Of a DNA stretch of 42,582 bases, positions 6,407-39,947 are shown one piece after another. Made by a program: the position numbers and the translations under genes. Source of the DNA: a virus; the IMG/VR virus record IMGVR_UViG_3300044642_000699, positions 1 to 42,582 of that record; one strand, given 5' to 3'. How positions within the stretch are numbered: the stretch's first letter is position 1; the number at the start of each line of letters is the position of its first letter. The notes under the pieces were generated by a model. The model was given only the letters and a program-made list of their open reading frames with translations. It was not told the DNA's origin and did no database searches.

Positions 6407-8556
6407 TTCTTCAGCTCCATAACTGCACTCCAGCCTCTCGCAGTAGCCACCATAATGTGCCTACCAAGGGTAGAAAACTTCTTTCCCTTGTCTTTTTTAT
6501 TGCCTCTGCCTATTTCTGCAATAAGTTTAGCTGTAACTTCTACTCCGTTTTTGTCCGCTATTGACTTTAGTTGGTTGAGAAGATCATTACTGATTACCCA
6601 ACCGTTTCTTCTTAGTTCAGCGATTAGCTGTAGCAGCGAGGTTTGGTCAGAGTTTGTTTTTCGTGCAATTTCTCTGCTGACTTCCATAAAGTCCATAGAA
6701 TTGTATCTTTCGCTATCTGCAGCATATTCGCTTAAAGCAGCATAAGCAAGCTTAACCCTCTTGTGATACATATCTCTTTCTGCTGAATCTGCAAAATCAA
6801 ACCCTTGAAGAGCCCACATGTAAGCGCCGTTTGGGTAGCTATCGGTGGCAGCTGCAGATGTTTTTATTCTGTCTGCTCCTATAGATTTATAGTATTCTAC
6901 CGCTGCTTTTGTGATCTTTTCCCCCAGGCCGAGACCTTGAACGCTGTCACCAAGCTTAAAAGATAGATGGCTGACTGTAATTTCGCCAGTATTTGGATCT
7001 ACTTTTAGAGCTCTAGACATTCCAGATCCTCCAGTATCCCGACCCTGGGAATCTAGTACGCTTGCCTCCCACGATAGAGTTACGCCAAGATGCCTACTAC
7101 TTCCTTTTCTATTTAATAGGGTCCTTAGATCTGCATTTTTTGTGTTATTACCCTTTGAAGTCATCTTTACGGTGTACCCGCCCAAATCCGCGTTTTCGTT
7201 TAAGTATTTTTCTAGTCCGTCTACAAAATTATCATTTTGGAAAATTTTTGGCAAAAGGGTCTCTAAGCTTAGTTCTTTTATTCCAACTTGGTTTTCTAAG
7301 AAATCTCTAAATTCTTTAGAAGCCTGCCCTGAGCCCAGGTACTTAGCAAAACTTTCGGCAAAGTGCTCACGAATGTTGTTTTCACCGTACTCTGAAACTT
7401 TTCTAGCCTTGACTTCAGCATAGGCTTCAGTGCTTGAGTTGTTGCTCCACCCCCAGGTGACGCCCAAAACATTGCTTTCAACTGTGTGGCCGTACTCATG
7501 TAGAACTGTCTCAACTATAGGATCTATCCTGAAAGCAGACGGTGTTTTAGAAGCGCTTTCGTGGTTGATAATAATCGTATTATTTGTGACTGTAGACGCT
7601 ATAAGGTCTAGAGATTCATTTTCATTAGTCATAGGCACAACGTTGCCGTACGTGTTTGTAGCTATGTTGACTCCCTGAACCCCCGAGAAGCCGTCTTTTT
7701 TAACCAAAGTAGTTACTCTTGTGTACTCAGCTGAGGCCAATTCGTTAGTTGCGCTAATGACTAACGAAGTCTTTTCAGGCCTGAGGCCGGTTGGAGTTAA
7801 ATTATTTGAATAAAAATTATTTAAAACTCCTACAGAAGCCCTATAAGGAGACATATCTACCGAAGGAGTTATGAACCCGTTTTTAGTTTGTTCAGTTCTT
7901 GTAACCTTGAAAGGCACTCGAATGGATCCAAAAGGCGAAACACTCTCCGAGCCCGAACTAGGTGTAAATTTTACCCCTCGCTCAAGGATACCGTCTACAG
8001 TTTCGTCAATCGTGAGATTCGGGTCGTCTGACCTAAGGAACTGGACAAAAAACGCTAAACTTTTTTCAAATTGCTCATTGTAAAAATTTGAACTGGGATT
8101 TTTTGCTCCAGCAATTTTTACCACAGCGCGAGCAAAACTTAAGTCTTGCGAGTCAAACGCCGCATTTCTTAGGATTGAAATGCTAGAGGCTGGAACTTCT
8201 TCGCCTAGGGAAATAGAGTTTTTATCTAGCTGATAACCGGTGCCAAGAAGGTCTCTAGCCGGGAAACTCGAGATTTGCATCGCTCTTCGGTGCATCTCAT
8301 CGCGCAGTAGGTATGCTCTTTTTGCAGCTGCTTCTAGGTTAGCTTCATAAGTAGCTCCACCATATCTACTTAAGTTTGCAAACTCTGGTAGGGCCCTTAC
8401 AGCTTTAGAATCTATAAACTCAGGGATGACTGCATTTGGTAGGGCTCTAACTTCAGAAGGGACGTCTTCCCAATCAGGTAAATCAAACTCGACGTCCGAG
8501 TCAGGATTTACTTGTACTTCTCTGAATGAGATGAGCCCCTGAGAGGGGCCTAAACT
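6403..8556 (-). CDS. HEYGH metallopeptidase + GNAT-like protein, expressed by -1 frameshift
   Basis: The first ATG in this frame is at 8295 (630 residues). The frame is open upstream to 8556 with no ATG, GTG or TTG codon and meets the A7 slippery site of the preceding gene. I therefore annotate it as the -1 extension, adding 87 residues before the 8295 Met. Numbered from that Met, HEYGH at 266-270 with Glu314 in EHFAESFAKYL gives a complete gluzincin-type zinc site, as in lethal-factor-like peptidases found in phage head toxins. Residues 425-505 look GNAT-like: QGLGLGEK at 453-460 fits the acetyl-CoA loop, and GAYMWALQGFDF resembles the GGY.WA..GF motif of head-delivered effector domains. No signal peptide is seen. 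Translation from an internal start at 8295 or 8280 is the alternative. Confidence 0.75.
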   Translation of the reverse strand, partial: SLGPSQGLISFREVQVNPDSDVEFDLPDWEDVPSEVRALPNAVIPEFIDSKAVRALPEFANLSRYGGATYEANLEAAAKRAYLLRDEMHRRAMQISSFPARDLLGTGYQLDKNSISLGEEVPASSISILRNAAFDSQDLSFARAVVKIAGAKNPSSNFYNEQFEKSLAFFVQFLRSDDPNLTIDETVDGILERGVKFTPSSGSESVSPFGSIRVPFKVTRTEQTKNGFITPSVDMSPYRASVGVLNNFYSNNLTPTGLRPEKTSLVISATNELASAEYTRVTTLVKKDGFSGVQGVNIATNTYGNVVPMTNENESLDLIASTVTNNTIIINHESASKTPSAFRIDPIVETVLHEYGHTVESNVLGVTWGWSNNSSTEAYAEVKARKVSEYGENNIREHFAESFAKYLGSGQASKEFRDFLENQVGIKELSLETLLPKIFQNDNFVDGLEKYLNENADLGGYTVKMTSKGNNTKNADLRTLLNRKGSSRHLGVTLSWEASVLDSQGRDTGGSGMSRALKVDPNTGEITVSHLSFKLGDSVQGLGLGEKITKAAVEYYKSIGADRIKTSAAATDSYPNGAYMWALQGFDFADSAERDMYHKRVKLAYAALSEYAADSERYNSMDFMEVSREIARKTNSDQTSLLQLIAELRRNGWVISNDLLNQLKSIADKNGVEVTAKLIAEIGRGNKKDKGKKFSTLGRHIMVATARGWSAVMELKN

Positions 8557-11717: not shown

Positions 11718-13022
11718 TTAGCTGACTTTAGGGTATTTTTCTGGTAAGGCTTTTATTTGAGCTAGAGTGCTATCAGATAGCGCTCCACTAGAAATAAGAG
11801 CACGGACTCTAGTTGCTGCATGCAAAGAATCTACTTGGTCTAGCTCGTCATTAAAGGCATTTGCTATTGCATCTCTAGAAGATTCGGACAGCTCGGAAGC
11901 ACCGGCAATCCATGTTGCAGCTGCCACTATGGAAGACTGCCTGCCTGGGTGGCCTTCAGCTGTCAACCCTGCGTACTCGGAGAAGTCATCTGAGACGTCT
12001 TCCACAGAGCCTGAAGTAGCGTACTCAGCGAAAGCGTGTAGCTCCCACAGGATGGCAGAGTATATTTCCTCGTCAGACAAGTCGCTGTACCTTTCAAGGG
12101 CACTTCGGGCTACTGAATAGGCAGCTTCTTTAGTAATATGACGAGCGGACCCAAACTGAGAGTTAAAGTCATCTACAAGCATGTTAATTGTGGCAGCTGA
12201 CGGTACGCAGTTAGGTACGCGCTTACCGTTCTTCTTTTTCATTCCAACCTGGACGTATCCGGACCAGCAAGGGTCATCTGCATCTTTTTTAAGGTTAGCT
12301 TCAGACTCGGCTGCCGCTATTAGCGATAGCTGTTTATATACTTTTGCCTTAATCCCACTGCCACCGTTTTTTACTTTAGTAGCGCACCTGTGGTGTCCAT
12401 CAACAAGATACATTCCAGAGTCATCTCTGTAAACTACTACTGGCTTTTCATAGTCAGCAGCTTCTTTGAAGTTTGAAGAATCGACGGTCTCTTGTGTTGG
12501 AGTTAGGTCATAGATATCTAGATACTCGTCTGAGTACTCGTCCTCTGTTTCGCTAATTGCAGACTTTAGTAGGTCTTGAATTAGCTTTGGCTCCTTAGAG
12601 AAATATTTTTCTACAGGCTCTTTGGATTCATCTTCCTCGCTAGGAGTAGAGGAACCAGGAGTTACAGATCCGTCTGGGAGCACAGCAAAACGACATAGGC
12701 CGCCTTCCTCTACCTCAGCAACAATAATCTGACATCCGTTAGGTGCTTGCCAGAAAACACAGTTGCCGCACTTAACGCCAATCTCTGCGTTTTCTGCATT
12801 CTCTTTAGCAGAAGTATAGCCAGCCCAAACGCCAGTGTTGTCGTCGTTAAATTTTCCATGCTTCTCTACAATCTCTAGTAGCGCATCGGCAAGGTCTTGC
12901 TCTTCTGGTACAAGCATTCCGGCTGCCTCTAGGGAAGCACGAATGTCTTTTTCTTTTAGGTTTTCTACAGGAGCGGCATGGCCACCTGCAGCTTTAAGAA
13001 CGCTTTGTAGATACTCAGACAT
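11718..13022 (-). CDS. ParB-like domain and Cys-cluster structural protein
   Basis: This 434-residue protein starts at ATG 13022, overlapping the stop of the Dps-like gene as TAATG. Near residue 85 it has a four-cysteine cluster (CGNCVFW, then GCQ and GLCRF), probably binding metal. A ParB/sulfiredoxin-like segment follows around residues 185-230, with the signature VDGHHRCA. Next is the phage motif DDPCWSGYVQVGMKKKNGKR ending in VPNCVP. The C-terminal third is acidic and helical. ParB-like folds can be nucleases or CTP-binding switches; here the domain sits in a head protein and its activity is unknown. Confidence 0.72.
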   Translation of the reverse strand: MSEYLQSVLKAAGGHAAPVENLKEKDIRASLEAAGMLVPEEQDLADALLEIVEKHGKFNDDNTGVWAGYTSAKENAENAEIGVKCGNCVFWQAPNGCQIIVAEVEEGGLCRFAVLPDGSVTPGSSTPSEEDESKEPVEKYFSKEPKLIQDLLKSAISETEDEYSDEYLDIYDLTPTQETVDSSNFKEAADYEKPVVVYRDDSGMYLVDGHHRCATKVKNGGSGIKAKVYKQLSLIAAAESEANLKKDADDPCWSGYVQVGMKKKNGKRVPNCVPSAATINMLVDDFNSQFGSARHITKEAAYSVARSALERYSDLSDEEIYSAILWELHAFAEYATSGSVEDVSDDFSEYAGLTAEGHPGRQSSIVAAATWIAGASELSESSRDAIANAFNDELDQVDSLHAATRVRALISSGALSDSTLAQIKALPEKYPKVS

Positions 13023-13477
13023 TAGCGAACTCCTAGGAAGGCCTTAATTTGCCAGTTCCACTTTTTGTGGGTGTCAATACGTCCCGCTAAAAAGTCCATA
13101 AGACCTTGCTCGCTGCAGGACTCTGCACAAACAAAAGCCTCCATCAAAGAATCAAGTACGCACTGGTTTACTCTTAGAGCGGACTCTAGTAGGAATCTAG
13201 AAGATGAACCATCTTGTCTAGCTTCTTGAATCTTTGACAGTTCGCAAAAGTCGGACAGTAAGTACGGAGCTGGGTAACCAATCTTAAGAATATTCTCTGC
13301 GATTGGGTCAACAGATGACTCTAGGTCCTCGTAAAGTTCGCCAAAGAACTCGTGGTACTCACCGAAGTCTGGGCCAAGTACGTTCCAGTGGTAGCCCTGC
13401 ATTATGAACTTTGCAGTAACTACTTCAGACAGTAGCTCTGCCAGTTTTTTAGCCATCTCTGTTTTGTCGTAATGCAT
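13022..13477 (-). CDS. Dps/ferritin-like protein in the head operon
   Basis: This 151-residue protein starts at ATG 13477, just behind the portal gene. It matches the Dps family through YHWNVLGPDFGEYHEFF and SSVDPIAENILKIG. Aligned by eye to E. coli Dps, ferroxidase ligands His51, His63, Asp78 and Glu82 are kept as His30, His42, Asp57 and Glu61, with the same spacing. The Asp67 equivalent is Gly46. Dps proteins form 12-subunit shells that oxidise iron and can coat DNA. The length is slightly short of typical Dps. Its place between portal and head genes is odd and suggests it is made late or even packaged. Confidence 0.8.
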   Translation of the reverse strand: MHYDKTEMAKKLAELLSEVVTAKFIMQGYHWNVLGPDFGEYHEFFGELYEDLESSVDPIAENILKIGYPAPYLLSDFCELSKIQEARQDGSSSRFLLESALRVNQCVLDSLMEAFVCAESCSEQGLMDFLAGRIDTHKKWNWQIKAFLGVR

Positions 13478-19512: not shown

Positions 19513-20265
19513 CTAGTTGTTAGTTTCAATTAGTCGGGTGTAGATGACTTCACTATTCGAATTGTCTTTTGCCCATTCGCTGATAGAGATTATTTCGGCC
19601 CTATCTCCTGGCTTACCGCCAGCGTGGATCATCTCATCAGGACCAACGTAGATCCCAATATGGTAGGCGCTTGAGTAGTTTTTGTAATTGAAAGACACTA
19701 GGTCTCCAATTTTAGGTTCGGCTACAATCTCGCCCCAGTATCTTTGCCATGTGGCACTGTGATACAGGTCTATCCCAAGCTGGGCGTAGGTCCATTTTAC
19801 AAGACCCGAGCAGTCCCAGGCGCGGGGGCTTGACCCCTGAAAAACCCAAGGGGTGATGCCAATTTGTTTTTTAACCAAGACAAGAGCCTCGTTTAGGGCT
19901 TTGGTGTCAGAGGCGATTTTTTCTAGCCGAGCAATTTCTGCCTCTAGTTCTGCTTGCACTTTTTCAGCATCAGACATGAGAGCTTCTTTTGCAGCTTTTT
20001 CCTGGGCCATCCAGTCGTACGACCCAATGATCGGTGCGCTTGACTTTAGGACAGGGCCCGCAGCAATCTCGGGTGATACAGCAGGGCCGGAAACAATTTC
20101 TACCTTTTGTACAGGAGAATCAATTATTTCAGCCGGTTTTGTTACTTGTGTTACTAATGTTTGTTCTGACGCAGCGGTGGTGGACTCTAACATCTGTCCG
20201 AACGCTGCGGTGGAGCCAGTCATTACTAGTGCTATCGCACTTATTGAAATGAACCTCTTATGCAT
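19513..20265 (-). CDS. secreted NlpC/P60 peptidoglycan hydrolase
   Basis: This 250-residue protein starts at ATG 20265. It has a signal peptide (basic MHKR, hydrophobic ISISAIALVMTGSTAAFG, likely cleaved near residue 23) and a Val/Pro-rich spacer. A helical coiled-coil-like segment (85-130) precedes the C-terminal NlpC/P60 domain. Cys152 in WDCSGLVKWTY, His202 in AYHIGIYVG and His214 in MIHAG form the expected triad. This resembles actinobacterial RipA-type enzymes that cut peptidoglycan stem peptides. It has its own promoter and terminator, so expression outside the late operon is likely. It could help lysis, release or exclusion of competitors. Confidence 0.88.
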   Translation of the reverse strand: MHKRFISISAIALVMTGSTAAFGQMLESTTAASEQTLVTQVTKPAEIIDSPVQKVEIVSGPAVSPEIAAGPVLKSSAPIIGSYDWMAQEKAAKEALMSDAEKVQAELEAEIARLEKIASDTKALNEALVLVKKQIGITPWVFQGSSPRAWDCSGLVKWTYAQLGIDLYHSATWQRYWGEIVAEPKIGDLVSFNYKNYSSAYHIGIYVGPDEMIHAGGKPGDRAEIISISEWAKDNSNSEVIYTRLIETNN

Positions 20266-22860: not shown

Positions 22861-22880
22861 ACGCCTTCAGCTAGCAAAAA

Positions 22881-22906
22881 ACCCCCCGCCAATTACGGCA
22901 GGGGGT
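22881..22906 (-). terminator. intrinsic terminator after the subtilisin-like gene
   Basis: ACCCCC..GCC pairs with GGC..GGGGGT around one mismatch, and the minus strand continues into TTTTTTGC. Confidence 0.8.
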
Positions 22907-22919
22907 CTTTGCTTATTGC

Positions 22920-23858
22920 TTACTTGTTTAGAAAGGCGGTGTTGAGTAGAACATTGCCTCTAACGCTCTTAGCGTCAGCAACAGCTCCACTCAAACCATT
23001 TCTTGTAATCTCCCAAACAGTCGCGGGGGCGTCTGCCTTAGGGTTGCTTGAAAGATACAAGGCTATTGCTCCAGCAACATGAGGCGCGGAAAAAGATGTT
23101 CCGCTTCTTGTTGAGGGCAAACCATTTGTTCCCTCGGTAGTAATCAAACCACCAGGGGCGTACATAGAAACACACTCGCCAAAGTTAGAAGTATTTGTTC
23201 TTTGGTCGTTCATGTTTATAGACCCAACGGTAAGGGCGTATGTTGCTCCCGCGGGGCTTAGACGACAAGCGTCTATGTTTTGATTACCAGCGGAAACTAC
23301 TGAAACTATACCAATCCCGTAGAGTTTTGTAATCGCGTCATCAACCAACTTAGTCTTACCAACCGCGATACTTAGATTCACAACGGCAGGGGTACCGCGC
23401 GGGTGATTCTTGATTATCCAGTCAATTCCCTTGACAATGTTGGCAGGAACTATTCCACCTTTACAGTCCGCAACGCGAACTGGCACAATGGTTGCGCTCT
23501 TAGCTACTCCATAAGTCGCGCTAGCAATGATTCCAGCTACGGCTGTTCCATGACCATTACAGTCAAGATTAGCCTGATGTGGCGTTCTAAGTCCCGCGAG
23601 AGTGTCAAACCCTGTAAGAACTCTCCCGCCGAAACCAGGTAGCGTTCCAAGAACTCCCGTGTCTAAAACATACACGCGAACTCCAGCGCCAGCGCTGTCG
23701 GGGTATTTGTAGCTTCTATCTAGTGTTGCTGTTCCCGCTGTTTGGTCTACTCTATCTAGACCCCAAGAACTAACTTCACCTTGAACTCCAGCGCTAGCGG
23801 GGGTAGTCCCAACGGCAAGCAATGCCACCGCGAGCGCGATACTAATTTGTCTTTTCAT
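22920..23858 (-). CDS. secreted subtilisin-like serine protease (S8, proteinase K-like)
   Basis: I take ATG 23858 (312 residues, behind GAAAGAGAAAA), because the longer frame to 23930 would translate the promoter. A signal peptide is clear (MKRQ, hydrophobic core, PASAG near residue 24). The catalytic triad is Asp66 (VYVLDTGV), His103 (DCNGHGTAVAG) and Ser255 (RSGTSFSAPHVAGA), with oxyanion Asn192 (SAGNQN). WGLDRVDQ at 32 is the start of the mature domain in proteinase K relatives. There is no room for the usual I9 propeptide, which normally assists folding. It forms a one-gene unit with its own promoter and terminator. It probably acts outside the cytoplasm. Confidence 0.93.
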   Translation of the reverse strand: MKRQISIALAVALLAVGTTPASAGVQGEVSSWGLDRVDQTAGTATLDRSYKYPDSAGAGVRVYVLDTGVLGTLPGFGGRVLTGFDTLAGLRTPHQANLDCNGHGTAVAGIIASATYGVAKSATIVPVRVADCKGGIVPANIVKGIDWIIKNHPRGTPAVVNLSIAVGKTKLVDDAITKLYGIGIVSVVSAGNQNIDACRLSPAGATYALTVGSINMNDQRTNTSNFGECVSMYAPGGLITTEGTNGLPSTRSGTSFSAPHVAGAIALYLSSNPKADAPATVWEITRNGLSGAVADAKSVRGNVLLNTAFLNK

Positions 23859-23944
23859 TTTTCTCTTTCTACTAAGTGTTGCTATAAGCCAAATCAAGAT
23901 AACACAAACGCAAGAAAAAAGCAACCGCAACTAAGAGAGGCATC

Positions 23945-23957
23945 AAAAAGTGGATAC
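23945..23957 (-). repeat. 13-bp promoter-associated repeat, copy 3
   Basis: This is an exact GTATCCACTTTTT followed by GA. It heads the protease gene; TTGCTT and TATCTT with 17-base spacing begin 20 bases further on. Confidence 0.9.
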
Positions 23958-23993: not shown

Positions 23994-24015
23994 AACCCCG
24001 CGCAAAGGCGGGGTT
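23994..24015 (-). terminator. intrinsic terminator
   Basis: A perfect 8-bp stem (AACCCCGC with GCGGGGTT) and a TTCTTTTT tail on the minus strand follow the stop of the gene at 24031. Confidence 0.9.
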
Positions 24016-30827: not shown

Positions 30828-32681
30828 CTAGGTGAGTGAACCCACCCGACCCAATGCTTCGCTTGCCGACTTGCCGACTTGCCTCGCAATCTCCGTTGTG
30901 TCTAGGTCGTCCAAGTGAACTCCCCACGCCGAACCAGAAATTATTGACCTCGCCCCCATGCCATTACAACCTCTCGGTGTAATCCAAAGAACCGCCACGC
31001 CGTTTTGTTTACACTCTCTTAGTAGTTCGGTTGCTCTCTGTAGTTCTGTGCCTGTGTAGTTTCCGTCCGACACAACAACTAACATACGCACGCCGTCCCC
31101 AAAAGTTAGTCCAAGCTCGCCGTCAATCGCTTCAAACGCTTCGGTAAACTTTTCAGTTCCGTCTGGTGCTGTGTAAATCGTCACCTCGCTCAAACGCTGT
31201 CCACGCTTTAGAGTTGGGAACACGCCAGAGCCGTAATACACCATAGCCGTTTCAGCTTGAATCCTGCGACCTGCCTCGGACATAATCCACGCTGTCTGTC
31301 CCATAGCTTCCATAGCAGAACCCATAGAACCTGAAATGTCCACCATGATTCCAAGCCTTAGCGTTGGGTCGTCTGTGTGCTTGCGTGTCTTTGACTTCCA
31401 CGCTGGCAACTCTCCACGCTTGCCAATAGATTCAACTGCCCTATTCTGGACGGCGTTTCTCATAATCAGCTTGCCCTGTGGTGTCTGACTTTTGCGAACA
31501 TGAACCGAACGCTCACGATACTTTGCCTTGTCTAATGACTTAGCAATCTCTACCGCACTTGCTCGCTCTGTCCCTGTCGGCTGTCTGCGAGAGGATACAG
31601 ACGAGTTAGAACCCGAACCCTCTTGGGAGTGTGGCTTGTGAAAGATTTGCTTGGCTATGTTTTTGCGTTGGTTGTTATTCTTTGCTTGCTCTTGCCTTGC
31701 TTTTGATTCCTCGCCCCACTTGTCTTGTTGCTCTTGTTGGGCAAGTGCCTCTCTCGCTTCTATCTCCGAGTGACTAGCAGATTCGGAAAGTTTTTCAATC
31801 ATGTCTTTCATGGTGTCAGACAGTTCACTTCCGCTTCCACCCTCGCTGTCGCCCTCTGATTCATCTGGCTCGCCGAAAATGTCACCTGCCGAACCTGAAT
31901 CTGGCTCGCCCTCTGGGTCTGATTCACGCAATAGTTCAACCCACTTCTTAGCAAGTTCAATAGCTCGCTCAATCTGTGGAACGCCTAGTGCCTGAAACTC
32001 AATCCAAACTTTTCTTAGTTCGTCAAACAAGTCCTGACCAAGAACTGAAACTACTTCTCTGTAAATGTCAGTAATGTCAGAAACTTCAAGAACTCCTGAA
32101 TCCACTCTTGAAACTGAAAGTCCTGCTAGGCGTGCTGTATTCCAAACATCACTAGCCAAACCTGCGAGTGTGTCTGTAGTCACTTCGTCTAGTGCCATGT
32201 CTAAAGCAGAAGCACGCAAGAAGTTTCTAAGCTCTGGTCGCTCTTTGATTCCCTTTGCTTCAATTCGTGATTCCTCTAGCAACATAAAAGCTCTTTGCTC
32301 ATTAGGGTCTAGTGCCTCTGACAAAATTGAAGTGTCCCAATTCGTGTGGCGTGCGTGTAGTGCTTCGTGATACAGAACGCCTGTCACCATTGGATACTCA
32401 TACTGCGTTTCTTTTTTAGTCAAGTCGCCGACAAAATCTGCTGGCGTAAGTTCTCCAAACGCTTTCGGCAAGTTCACTTCAATCTCTGCTATGTCTGAAT
32501 AAAAAGCAGCGATAGCTTTGCCCTCGGCAGAATCCTCTCCACCATAGACAACTAAATCTGAACGCCATGACCAATCATTGACCAAGCGACCAATCTGTGA
32601 ACAAACTCTTAGCCACTCTGGGTTGGTTGTAGTTGTTCGTGTTGTAAGTCTTGACTTACCTTTTACTTTGTAGTGTGCCAT
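30828..32681 (-). CDS. von Willebrand A domain protein, CobT/MoxR-partner type
   Basis: This 617-residue protein is taken from ATG 32681 behind GAAAGGGAA. An N-terminal region contains HEALHARH (His105, Glu106, His109), a metallopeptidase-like motif common in this family. The middle is Ser/Glu/Gln-rich and disordered (about 265-390). A C-terminal VWA domain has MIDAS DISGSMGS (Asp448, Ser450, Ser452) and a later VVVSDGNYTG. Such proteins work with MoxR/CobS-type AAA+ ATPases, and that ATPase is encoded just upstream. The pair probably remodels a protein or inserts a metal, but its target in phages is unknown. Confidence 0.88.
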   Translation of the reverse strand: MAHYKVKGKSRLTTRTTTTNPEWLRVCSQIGRLVNDWSWRSDLVVYGGEDSAEGKAIAAFYSDIAEIEVNLPKAFGELTPADFVGDLTKKETQYEYPMVTGVLYHEALHARHTNWDTSILSEALDPNEQRAFMLLEESRIEAKGIKERPELRNFLRASALDMALDEVTTDTLAGLASDVWNTARLAGLSVSRVDSGVLEVSDITDIYREVVSVLGQDLFDELRKVWIEFQALGVPQIERAIELAKKWVELLRESDPEGEPDSGSAGDIFGEPDESEGDSEGGSGSELSDTMKDMIEKLSESASHSEIEAREALAQQEQQDKWGEESKARQEQAKNNNQRKNIAKQIFHKPHSQEGSGSNSSVSSRRQPTGTERASAVEIAKSLDKAKYRERSVHVRKSQTPQGKLIMRNAVQNRAVESIGKRGELPAWKSKTRKHTDDPTLRLGIMVDISGSMGSAMEAMGQTAWIMSEAGRRIQAETAMVYYGSGVFPTLKRGQRLSEVTIYTAPDGTEKFTEAFEAIDGELGLTFGDGVRMLVVVSDGNYTGTELQRATELLRECKQNGVAVLWITPRGCNGMGARSIISGSAWGVHLDDLDTTEIARQVGKSASEALGRVGSLT

Positions 32682-32720
32682 TTGCTTCCCTTTCATTTGG
32701 CGTTTTTTTGTTATGTCTAA

Positions 32721-32749
32721 ATTGTATAGTAGTTGGGGGAGAAACGCAA
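32721..32749 (-). promoter_or_regulatory. promoter ahead of the VWA gene, without the repeat
   Basis: TTGCGT (32749-32744) and TACAAT (32726-32721) are 17 bases apart on the minus strand. This gives the VWA gene its own start although it follows the ATPase gene. Confidence 0.5.
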
Positions 32750-32788
32750 GTCAAATCAAACAAGAAAAAACCTTGCGTTTCCCCACCC

Positions 32789-32817
32789 TTTAGTGAGGAC
32801 ACAACCCACTCACTAAA
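32789..32817 (-). terminator. hairpin at the end of the AAA+ gene
   Basis: TTTAGTGAG and CTCACTAAA form a 9-bp stem containing the stop codon of the ATPase gene. No direct U-run follows, so it may only attenuate read-through to the VWA gene or protect mRNA. Confidence 0.5.
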
Positions 32818-33874
32818 TCTTTGCTGGCAGGATTGCCTCTCCGAATACTCTGGTGAATACATCACTAGCGATTGGTCTGTCAATCTCTGGTGCGGAAGCA
32901 AGCAAGTTTTGGACTGCCCACTTTGTTCCAAACATTTTGGACAAGTCACGGAACGCAAGCAACTCTCGCATTTGTGGCGACCAAGAAGTTTCACCATTTT
33001 CTAGTTTCTTTGCTAGATTCTGTGAAGCAACAACCGCACTCTGCGGAACTCCAAGTTTCCTAGCCAAGTTCCAATCAGTAGTCATTTCAACCTGAATAGC
33101 GAAACGAGATAGAAGTGCCTCTGACAAACGAACTCCTGCGACATTAGGGTTAGTTGCCGAAACTACAAAAAATCCTTCCTTAGCTTTTACTGTGCCTCGC
33201 TCTGGATTCTGTGTGATTGTAATTTCTTTTCTGCCGTCCATTAGTCCATAGACAACCGAAAGAACTTTCGGGTCAATCAAACCAATTTCGTCAATCAGTA
33301 GAACTTTACCCTCGGAAGCTGCTTTTACTAAACTTCCGTCCACCCACTCAAAACCGCCACTTGGAGTTTGGACATAGCCACCTACCAAGTCAGAAACTTC
33401 GGTGTCGCCAGAACCAAGAACTGTGTAAAGTTCATCTGGAAAAGCAGCTTCAACGCACGCTGTCTTTCCAGTTCCAGGAACTCCATAGAGCATTACATAC
33501 TGTCCTGCTTCTCTGGCTTTGCGTAGAACTTCAACATCTACATTGTCGCCCCACTTGCGACCATAGTAAAGGTCGCCATTAGGTCGTGAGTAAGATTCCT
33601 CTCCCTCTAAGTTCGCAACTGATTCCATAACTTCCTCTAGCTTCGCTGGCTCTGCTTCATCTAGTTTAGCTGGAGTTGAAAGTGTTGAACCTGCTTTACC
33701 TTTAGTGCGTAGTGTTGCTCTACCTGCTGGTGTTAGGTGTTCGTCAAGAATTGAAGTTGTCACTCCGAAACTTGAACCCCTTACTGCCCCGACAAGTTGT
33801 TCTAACAGTTGGTCATAGTTGATTCCTGCTAGGTCTGGTGCTGTGTGTTCTGCTATTACTTTTTGTTGATACAT
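32813..33874 (-). CDS. AAA+ ATPase, MoxR/CobS-like
   Basis: This 353-residue protein starts at ATG 33874 behind AAAGGGCGGAAG. Walker A is GVPGTGKT (131-138) and Walker B LLIDEIG (192-198, Asp195/Glu196). Sensor 1 is around Asn242 (VVSATNPN), and Arg257 in LLSRF is a possible arginine finger. SDLVGGYVQTPSGGFEWVDGSLVKAASEGKV is typical of the MoxR/CobS/NorQ group, split here by VQTPSG. It is upstream of the VWA partner, and the two probably form a hexamer-adaptor chaperone. The N-terminal 110 residues are specific to this phage. Confidence 0.92.
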   Translation of the reverse strand: MYQQKVIAEHTAPDLAGINYDQLLEQLVGAVRGSSFGVTTSILDEHLTPAGRATLRTKGKAGSTLSTPAKLDEAEPAKLEEVMESVANLEGEESYSRPNGDLYYGRKWGDNVDVEVLRKAREAGQYVMLYGVPGTGKTACVEAAFPDELYTVLGSGDTEVSDLVGGYVQTPSGGFEWVDGSLVKAASEGKVLLIDEIGLIDPKVLSVVYGLMDGRKEITITQNPERGTVKAKEGFFVVSATNPNVAGVRLSEALLSRFAIQVEMTTDWNLARKLGVPQSAVVASQNLAKKLENGETSWSPQMRELLAFRDLSKMFGTKWAVQNLLASAPEIDRPIASDVFTRVFGEAILPAKI

Positions 33875-38700: not shown

Positions 38701-39030
38701 TTACTTCTTCCGGGCCGCCGGCTTCTTCTTAGCAACAGCCTTCTTTGCAGCTGGCTTTTTCTTAGCGCTCGCCGCTGCAGTGGAAAGCTTCTTTGAAACT
38801 TCCTTGGCCGCAGCTTCTGCAACCACACCGAATGCTGGGTCCTTCTTGTTGACCCAACGAAGAATCACTGGGATAAGGGACGCCCACAAGGCGTTGGCCA
38901 CGAGGAGCCACTCACTGGTGCCGAAGTCAATTGGTGATGCAATACCTGAGGTTTGCATAACAATCATGATTGCTCCAACAACCTGGCCGAAGAGGTTCCT
39001 TACGTAGGAATCAATTGCTGCTTTGTTCAT
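38701..39030 (-). CDS. holin-like membrane protein
   Basis: This 109-residue protein starts at ATG 39030. Hydrophobic spans lie at about residues 13-31 and 41-59 (FGQVVGAIMIVMQTSGIA and WLLVANALWASLIPVILRWV). A strongly basic Lys/Ala tail (85-109) follows, typical of many actinophage holins. It follows the lysin gene by 47 bases, the usual pairing. It would form membrane lesions that release the lysin. Confidence 0.75.
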   Translation of the reverse strand: MNKAAIDSYVRNLFGQVVGAIMIVMQTSGIASPIDFGTSEWLLVANALWASLIPVILRWVNKKDPAFGVVAEAAAKEVSKKLSTAAASAKKKPAAKKAVAKKKPAARKK

Positions 39031-39077
39031 GTTTAGCTGTCCTTTCTATAGACGATGGAAGTCTAGCACTAAGGAGC

Positions 39078-39947
39078 TCAGCTGTCAAATTTGAAGACGC
39101 CGCTAACTTTTGACAAACGATTCAAAGTACCTGGATCCGGGAGACCCGTTACGTCAGATCCGGTTCTTCCAATGTTCCGTTGAAACCTGCTGCACGCAGC
39201 GGCGGTTGCTGCATCCCATCTACCTGGCTCACATCCCCTGAGGTCCGTCACCGTCGCGAGCGCTAGCTGGATTAGCTCGATCCTTTTGTTCTTATCCCCA
39301 TAGCGGATGTCTCCGTTCAGGCGGAGAATACTAGGCGCGCTCGCCGCTCCTTTGAGCTCTTCCATTTCAGCGACCGTCATACGTGTGCGGGCCGCGTCGA
39401 ACAGAACCATTAACCGTTCGTAAAAAGTCTTCCTGGATCCGACCTTCCCGTTACTGAACGCGGGCCGGCAAAAGATTAAAACTTCCGTTACATGTCGGAT
39501 CTTCTGATGCACGCCGTCTTTCTTTGTGAACGTAGACGCGCCTTCAGTGTTTCCCTCAACCGTGATGAACCGGCCGGTCTTCGTGAATTCTTGGACGTCC
39601 GTTACGATCCCACAGTGTGGCATGCCGAATGCTGCAGCAGCCGGTCCAACGTTTGATGAAAAGTTGAAGAGTACAACGTCGCCTGGTTTAGGCGCTCGCG
39701 AGATGGAACCCGTGCGAATGCATTCAGCCAGGCCGGCCGCAGAATAAACGAATGATGGAAAGTTTAGATCCGACTCCCGGGCCACCACATCAATGAACGC
39801 GCCGCTCCATGGGCCGGCGTCGTAACCAACCTTTTGACCAAAGATGTTACGGCCGCCAAGATCTGAAGTATACCCCAAATATTTCTGAGCGTTAGTTATG
39901 AACAGCTCTACATGCGGACCGGGTCCTGGCGTCTTTTTAAACCTCAT
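39078..39947 (-). CDS. lysin: CHAP-like domain plus peptidoglycan-binding domain
   Basis: This 289-residue protein starts at ATG 39947. The N-terminal CHAP-like domain (about 10-160) has GPWSGAFIDVVARE where active CHAP/NlpC enzymes have a Cys; the position is Ser48. The likely catalytic His111 is in GMPHCGIVTDV, with Glu131/Asn133 following. The C-terminal 75 residues (YGDKNKRIELIQLALATV, WDAATAAACSRFQRNIG) form a PG_binding_1 repeat. It is next to the holin-like gene. The Cys-to-Ser change means catalysis, or a wall-binding role, needs testing. There is no signal peptide, consistent with holin-dependent release. Confidence 0.8.
   Translation of the reverse strand: MRFKKTPGPGPHVELFITNAQKYLGYTSDLGGRNIFGQKVGYDAGPWSGAFIDVVARESDLNFPSFVYSAAGLAECIRTGSISRAPKPGDVVLFNFSSNVGPAAAAFGMPHCGIVTDVQEFTKTGRFITVEGNTEGASTFTKKDGVHQKIRHVTEVLIFCRPAFSNGKVGSRKTFYERLMVLFDAARTRMTVAEMEELKGAASAPSILRLNGDIRYGDKNKRIELIQLALATVTDLRGCEPGRWDAATAAACSRFQRNIGRTGSDVTGLPDPGTLNRLSKVSGVFKFDS

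Follow-up and report, generated by a model that had tools for sequence, protein, structure and literature searches.

The window, the whole 42,582-nucleotide stretch of viral DNA analyzed here, encodes a peptidase of the S8 family in which a predicted signal peptide runs almost directly into a proteinase K-like mature domain, with no I9 propeptide between the two. Judged from the sequences, this is a real, conserved, and unusual architecture inside a well-known enzyme family, and the protein looks like a natural subtilisin that would mature by signal-peptide removal alone. Among proteins that need a propeptide to fold and whose folding is under kinetic control, extracellular subtilisins are the textbook example. 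We consider it rather probable that this exported, I9-less proteinase K-type enzyme is matured by signal peptidase, folds without a chaperone, and cuts surface proteins. Conserved exported subtilases devoid of a propeptide, together with their I9-bearing relatives, would make the residues that allow unaided folding directly testable, and such enzymes would supply ready-made single-domain secreted proteases. The phage enzyme may also alter the cell surface of freshwater actinobacteria during infection.

S8 domain and N-terminus of the window protein

The open reading frame described in an earlier, sequence-only reading of the window is present and is encoded on the minus strand. Its features are as follows:

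22920..23858, minus strand: coding sequence of the putatively secreted, propeptide-less S8 peptidase, 312 aa
23863..23870, minus strand: Shine-Dalgarno-like sequence AGAAAGAG, just 5' of the ATG
23790..23858, minus strand: predicted signal peptide, residues 1–23, MKRQISIALAVALLAVGTTPASA, with predicted cleavage after ASA
23661..23663, minus strand: catalytic Asp66, invariant in the viral alignments A2 and A3
23550..23552, minus strand: catalytic His103, invariant in A2 and A3
23283..23285, minus strand: oxyanion-hole Asn192, invariant in A2 and A3
23094..23096, minus strand: catalytic Ser255 in SGTSFSAP, invariant in A2 and A3

The protein is a peptidase of family S8. Peptidase_S8 is its sole Pfam domain (E=2.6e-33, 116 bits against a gathering cut-off of 21.8), and the D-H-S triad and the oxyanion Asn are in place. 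The triad had been recognized as complete in the sequence-only reading; D66, H103, and S255, as well as N192 and Cys 100, 132, 198, and 229, are unchanged across 14 aligned viral sequences. A phmmer search of the PDB identified the proteinase K/aqualysin group as the best relatives (2b6n, E=4e-60; proteinase K, E=2e-36; aqualysin also matched). The AlphaFold2 model has a mean pLDDT of 90.4 and a pTM of 0.89, and low confidence is essentially confined to the signal peptide (residues 1–4 and 9–21). Its top Foldseek matches are 8c4z, 8c4x, 2b6n, 5wsl, and aqualysin I, and it superimposes on solved family members with TMt values of 0.93–0.96 and an rmsd of 1.2–1.7 Å. By mature-domain sequence and modeled fold, the predicted enzyme is therefore proteinase K-like.

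The N-terminus, which starts MKRQISIALAVALLAVGTTPASA-GVQGEVSSWGLDRVDQ..., has the features of a signal peptide, as expected for a proteinase K-like extracellular subtilase: a positive n-region, a hydrophobic core of 3.15 (KD), and agreement with the A-x-A rule. Only 31 residues, MKRQISIALAVALLAVGTTPASA followed by GVQGEVSSWGLDR, lie ahead of the first mature-domain Trp, and eight separate the predicted cleavage site from this W32. Residue 31 aligns by phmmer with residue 7 of both mature 2b6n and mature proteinase K, so that cleavage after A23 would generate an N-terminus about one residue from that of mature proteinase K. The I9 propeptide characteristic of proteinase K-like extracellular subtilases is absent. 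An alternative upstream start was considered and discarded, as only 24 further open codons are available, too few for an I9 domain, and they encode none. The S8 and PDB matches, the signal-peptide features, and the absence of I9 support the earlier description of a phage-encoded, secreted, proteinase K-like enzyme without propeptide.

Phage kinship, viral relatives, and cellular homologs

The window is a fragment of a larger genome: 11.9 kb of it recur without change at the end of a 128-kb contig, and 20.9 kb recur almost unchanged in a 66-kb contig. The matching DNA in these two contigs and an 84% identical S8 relative in another rule out a single-sample assembly artefact. According to the terminase, 73% identical, the nearest named phage is DSL-LC01, a 129-kb Actinomycetia phage from Dishui Lake (PMC10611076), which has several further genes in common with the window and no match to the S8 protein. 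A MoxR/CobS-like AAA ATPase gene beside one for a large VWA-like (CobT-like) protein (30828–33874, minus strand) is conserved in DSL-LC01 (71% and 41%). At 13022–13477 (minus strand), a ferritin/Dps-like protein gene directly adjoins the portal protein gene. WhiB genes are present in 19 of the 25 viral records encoding short-type S8 proteins, and together with the terminase kinship with actinophages this indicates that the hosts are probably actinobacteria.

Relatives of the window protein on viral contigs, at 84%, 48–52%, and about 40% identity, share its architecture and keep the triad. In group A, 31 residues precede the mature Trp in L014 (the 84% identical relative), 27 in L015–L017, and 26 in L018 and L019. 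In group B (L033–L037, L040, L041, and L043), there are 28–31. Members of group C (L020–L025, L027, L044, L045, L049, and L052) have 44–49 such residues, and L029 has 68. Group C shows a conserved (E)xIFxTMxxQSGPTWGLDR segment; in L020–L029, L049, and L052, its (E)xIFxTMxxQ part lies between the signal peptide and the mature domain. This segment could be a mini-propeptide, its position recalling the inhibitory extension of intracellular subtilisins (ISPs), and the statement that there is no pro-region at all is therefore strictly true for groups A and B only. In several A and C relatives (L015–L029), −10-like TANNNT hexamers are located 5–10 nt 5' of the S8 ATG, which argues against a missed upstream start. 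Their position suggests transcription beginning at the S8 ATG and hints at leaderless mRNAs in these actinophages.

Pfam analysis of nine short-type viral proteins detected S8 in all and I9 in none; I9 was detected in the N-terminal 115 residues of the cellular homolog L138. We also considered whether folding is assisted in trans, by an I9-type or other chaperone derived from a host subtilase propeptide or an unrecognised phage protein. It counts in favor of this idea that the propeptide of an extracellular subtilisin can work when supplied in trans, and that 31 of 296 genomes of the likely host order encode I9-type homologs. However, about 90% of the genomes of this order, which are mostly 0.8–2.2 Mb in size and probably represent the Nanopelagicales, have no strong S8 homolog. 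Moreover, PF05922 was found in none of the 25 whole short-type viral records, contigs of 124–154 kb among them, and in all five I9-type viral records used as positive controls in the same run. No phage I9 chaperone is thus encoded in trans as far as these contigs, most of them incomplete, extend. A sub-threshold match in G001 (E 0.013) contains internal stops and disappeared in a stricter run. Help in trans therefore appears unlikely, and we favor folding without such a chaperone.

The short form was found on viral contigs only, within a similarity-ranked sample. All of the approximately 134 cellular homologs examined have at least 91 residues upstream, and none is devoid of a pro-region, a contrast based on length for most cellular sequences and on an I9 match for the representatives tested. 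The genomes of about 85,000 species were scanned; among the best 80 cellular homologs, the 78 not cut at a contig edge have at least 107 residues before the Trp. An upstream stretch of pro-region size was likewise present in the best 30 of 395 Actinomycetes genomes, and at 28 further loci of the likely host order, 27 have at least 94 residues upstream and one is truncated.

In phylogenies based on the mature domains, with the pro-region excluded, the window protein groups with L014 and then with L015–L019 (clade A, 100/99). Clades A and C form a branch of the window gene and 14 viral sequences, apart from every cellular sequence (99/95 and 99/91 in two trees). Viral sequences that bear I9 share a branch with group B (100/100), supported at 98/89 in one tree and 85/66 in another, and the short-type L042 lies outside the three groups. 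Both the tree and the junction sequences suggest several independent losses of the propeptide; as a single clade uniting A, B, and C is not rejected (AU p=0.42), we do not assert them.

These relatives evolve under purifying selection, with a dN/dS of 0.22 for the window/L014 pair and of 0.04–0.10 for five other pairs, rough values since dS exceeds 1 for some of the latter. Together with the conserved triad, this range rules out a decayed gene. The sequence-only reading had raised two objections against itself, a propeptide in the relatives and their decay; the viral relatives are likewise without propeptide and are intact. Its idea of a recent capture from a host is not supported, the nearest cellular homologs being only about 40–52% identical and all endowed with a pro-region, and the viral sequences forming their own clade. 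An old loss of the propeptide, kept in a conserved viral clade, is the explanation that best fits the sequences, rather than a broken host gene.

Transcription unit and putative role

The S8 gene constitutes its own transcription unit, flanked by two terminator-like hairpins. Its elements succeed each other in the order preceding terminator, repeat copy, weak promoter-like site, coding sequence, and strong terminator:

23994..24015, minus strand: terminator-like hairpin of the preceding gene, which sets the S8 unit apart
23944..23957, minus strand: one of the window's 15 copies of a directional repeat, here GTATCCACTTTTTG, with GTATCCACTTTT at 23946–23957
23896..23924, minus strand: promoter-like TTGCTT-17-TATCTT, matching the consensus weakly and left uncalled by the promoter scan
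22876..22910, minus strand: terminator hairpin and T-run just past the S8 stop codon, −25.7 kcal/mol, z −5.39

The sequence-only reading had placed the gene alone between a repeat/promoter and a terminator. The separate unit, the repeat, and the terminator are borne out, the promoter less so. GTATCCACTTTT occurs in 15 exact copies between 22298 and 35581 of the window, on the minus strand only, where none is expected by chance. There is one copy per small transcription unit, just past the terminator of the preceding unit and about 30–80 nt upstream of promoter-like sequences. It was not found in L003 or in the DSL-LC01 stretch, which bears its own 12-mer repeats in 15–16 copies. The GTATCCACTTTT copies are possibly lineage-specific regulator sites.

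Going by names assigned by eye from N-termini, the S8 gene neighbors in groups A and C include nucleotide-metabolism, glycosyl/methyltransferase-like (surface-modification-like), and oxygenase-like genes, and the neighbor in group B is ribonucleotide-reductase-like. In the window, a second exported-type protein is encoded at 19513–20265 (minus strand), with a signal peptide, a coiled-coil-like stretch, and an NlpC/P60 domain; it is 94% identical in L003, where many of the genes around it differ. The S8 peptidase might assist lysis and exit by cutting wall or envelope proteins alongside this secreted hydrolase, whose conserved gene is only about 2.7 kb away. This seems improbable: the two genes are separate units, the A and C relatives adjoin nucleotide-metabolism and surface-modification-like genes, and the S8 gene lies outside the predicted holin/endolysin-like cluster (38701–39947), as the sequence-only reading had pointed out.

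We propose that the S8 protein is made during infection, with its gene transcribed as a separate unit. The chain would cross the membrane unfolded and, for this reason, would be inactive inside the cell. Signal peptidase, instead of the autocatalytic removal of a pro-domain, would generate the near-native N-terminus. Once at the external face of the membrane, the protein would fold with no intramolecular chaperone covalently attached, possibly helped by two conserved disulfides and Ca2+ binding. The mature enzyme would then cleave proteins at the surface of the infected actinobacterium or close to it. The most plausible purpose, and the weakest step of this scheme, may be the stripping of receptors or other surface proteins, blocking re-adsorption and leading to superinfection exclusion.

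A general exoprotease feeding the infected cell with peptides by increasing extracellular proteolysis would fit the stand-alone gene and the secreted, broad-specificity family to which proteinase K belongs. However, a soluble enzyme released into dilute water yields little private benefit to the cell producing it, and the fn3 domains found at the C-terminus of two viral relatives fit an extracellular or surface site and suggest retention there. We regard this nutrient role as unlikely. These arguments and the position of the S8 gene outside the lysis cluster lead us to prefer surface stripping, if weakly, over feeding or lysis. Against a surface role, the window protein has no C-terminal anchoring domain and might diffuse away. 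More broadly, it is conceivable, and we suggest it tentatively, that actinophages evolved, possibly more than once, a chaperone-independent extracellular subtilisin that signal peptidase alone converts into a non-zymogen protease.

Comparison with known S8 peptidases

The window protein resembles proteinase K, aqualysin I, and VPR (2b6n, 4dzt, 1sh7, and 8c4z) in its mature domain (38–42% over the structure), triad, fold (TMt 0.94–0.96), and signal peptide, and its four Cys positions correspond to Cys 69, 101, 165, and 196 of 2b6n. It differs from this group in being phage encoded and in having no I9 between the signal peptide and the mature domain. T7SS mycosins are secreted actinobacterial S8 peptidases whose N-terminal extension is not a classical propeptide. 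Membership of this family was rejected, as the NCBIfam model TIGR03921 (T7SS_mycosin) scores 106 bits against a cut-off of 278.75. The PADLOC "subtilase" model matches the protein as a generic S8 only, and a defense gene was not retained.

ISPs (PMC6220982) are made without a signal peptide, and their short pro-peptide, which is inhibitory, contains a LIPY/F motif. Like the window protein, they combine an S8 domain with the absence of a classical chaperone pro-domain, and phage-encoded ISP-like examples exist (Bacillus phages Goe3 and SP-15). Unlike them, the window protein bears a signal peptide and lacks the LIPY/F motif; no [LVI][IFLV]P[YFH] is present near its N-terminus, and we rejected it as an ISP. 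The unusual folding route implied by the sequence-only reading is a fair inference, tempered by the fact that ISPs already show the classical pro-domain to be replaceable.

S8 proteins of named phages are all less than 42% identical to the window protein, and among those examined none clearly combines a signal peptide with the lack of a propeptide. Those of Goe3, BcoS-136, and SP-15 are ISP-like without signal peptide. Those of Mallos, Golestan101-M, vir520, Atu_ph07, and Phosso have an N-terminal pro-like region and no signal peptide. The protein of the Acinetobacter contig MD-2021a has both a signal peptide and a propeptide, and its flanking genes look bacterial; the start of the Moorella phage protein is uncertain. 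In Xanthomonas phage Mallos and Staphylococcus phage Golestan101-M, the S8 genes adjoin tail genes, as might be expected of a virion-associated protease acting at entry. Such a function is very improbable for the window protein, which possesses the classical signal peptide missing from these two proteins and whose gene is not among the structural genes. We found no description of an exported propeptide-less phage subtilase in the literature searched.

A further close parallel is provided by S8 proteins on actinophage-like contigs (L030, L032, L039, and L046–L048), which are viral and proteinase K-like and retain I9. Two tandem I9-bearing subtilases are also encoded at 8195–10821 of L007, a bacterial-looking contig classified as viral. 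The start is similar in the two types of viral protein, with LQNNNGWRPQWGLDRIDQ in the I9-bearing L046 and LQNDNGWRPTWGLDRVDQ in the propeptide-less L035. The I9-bearing viral proteins plausibly depict the state that preceded propeptide loss in group B.
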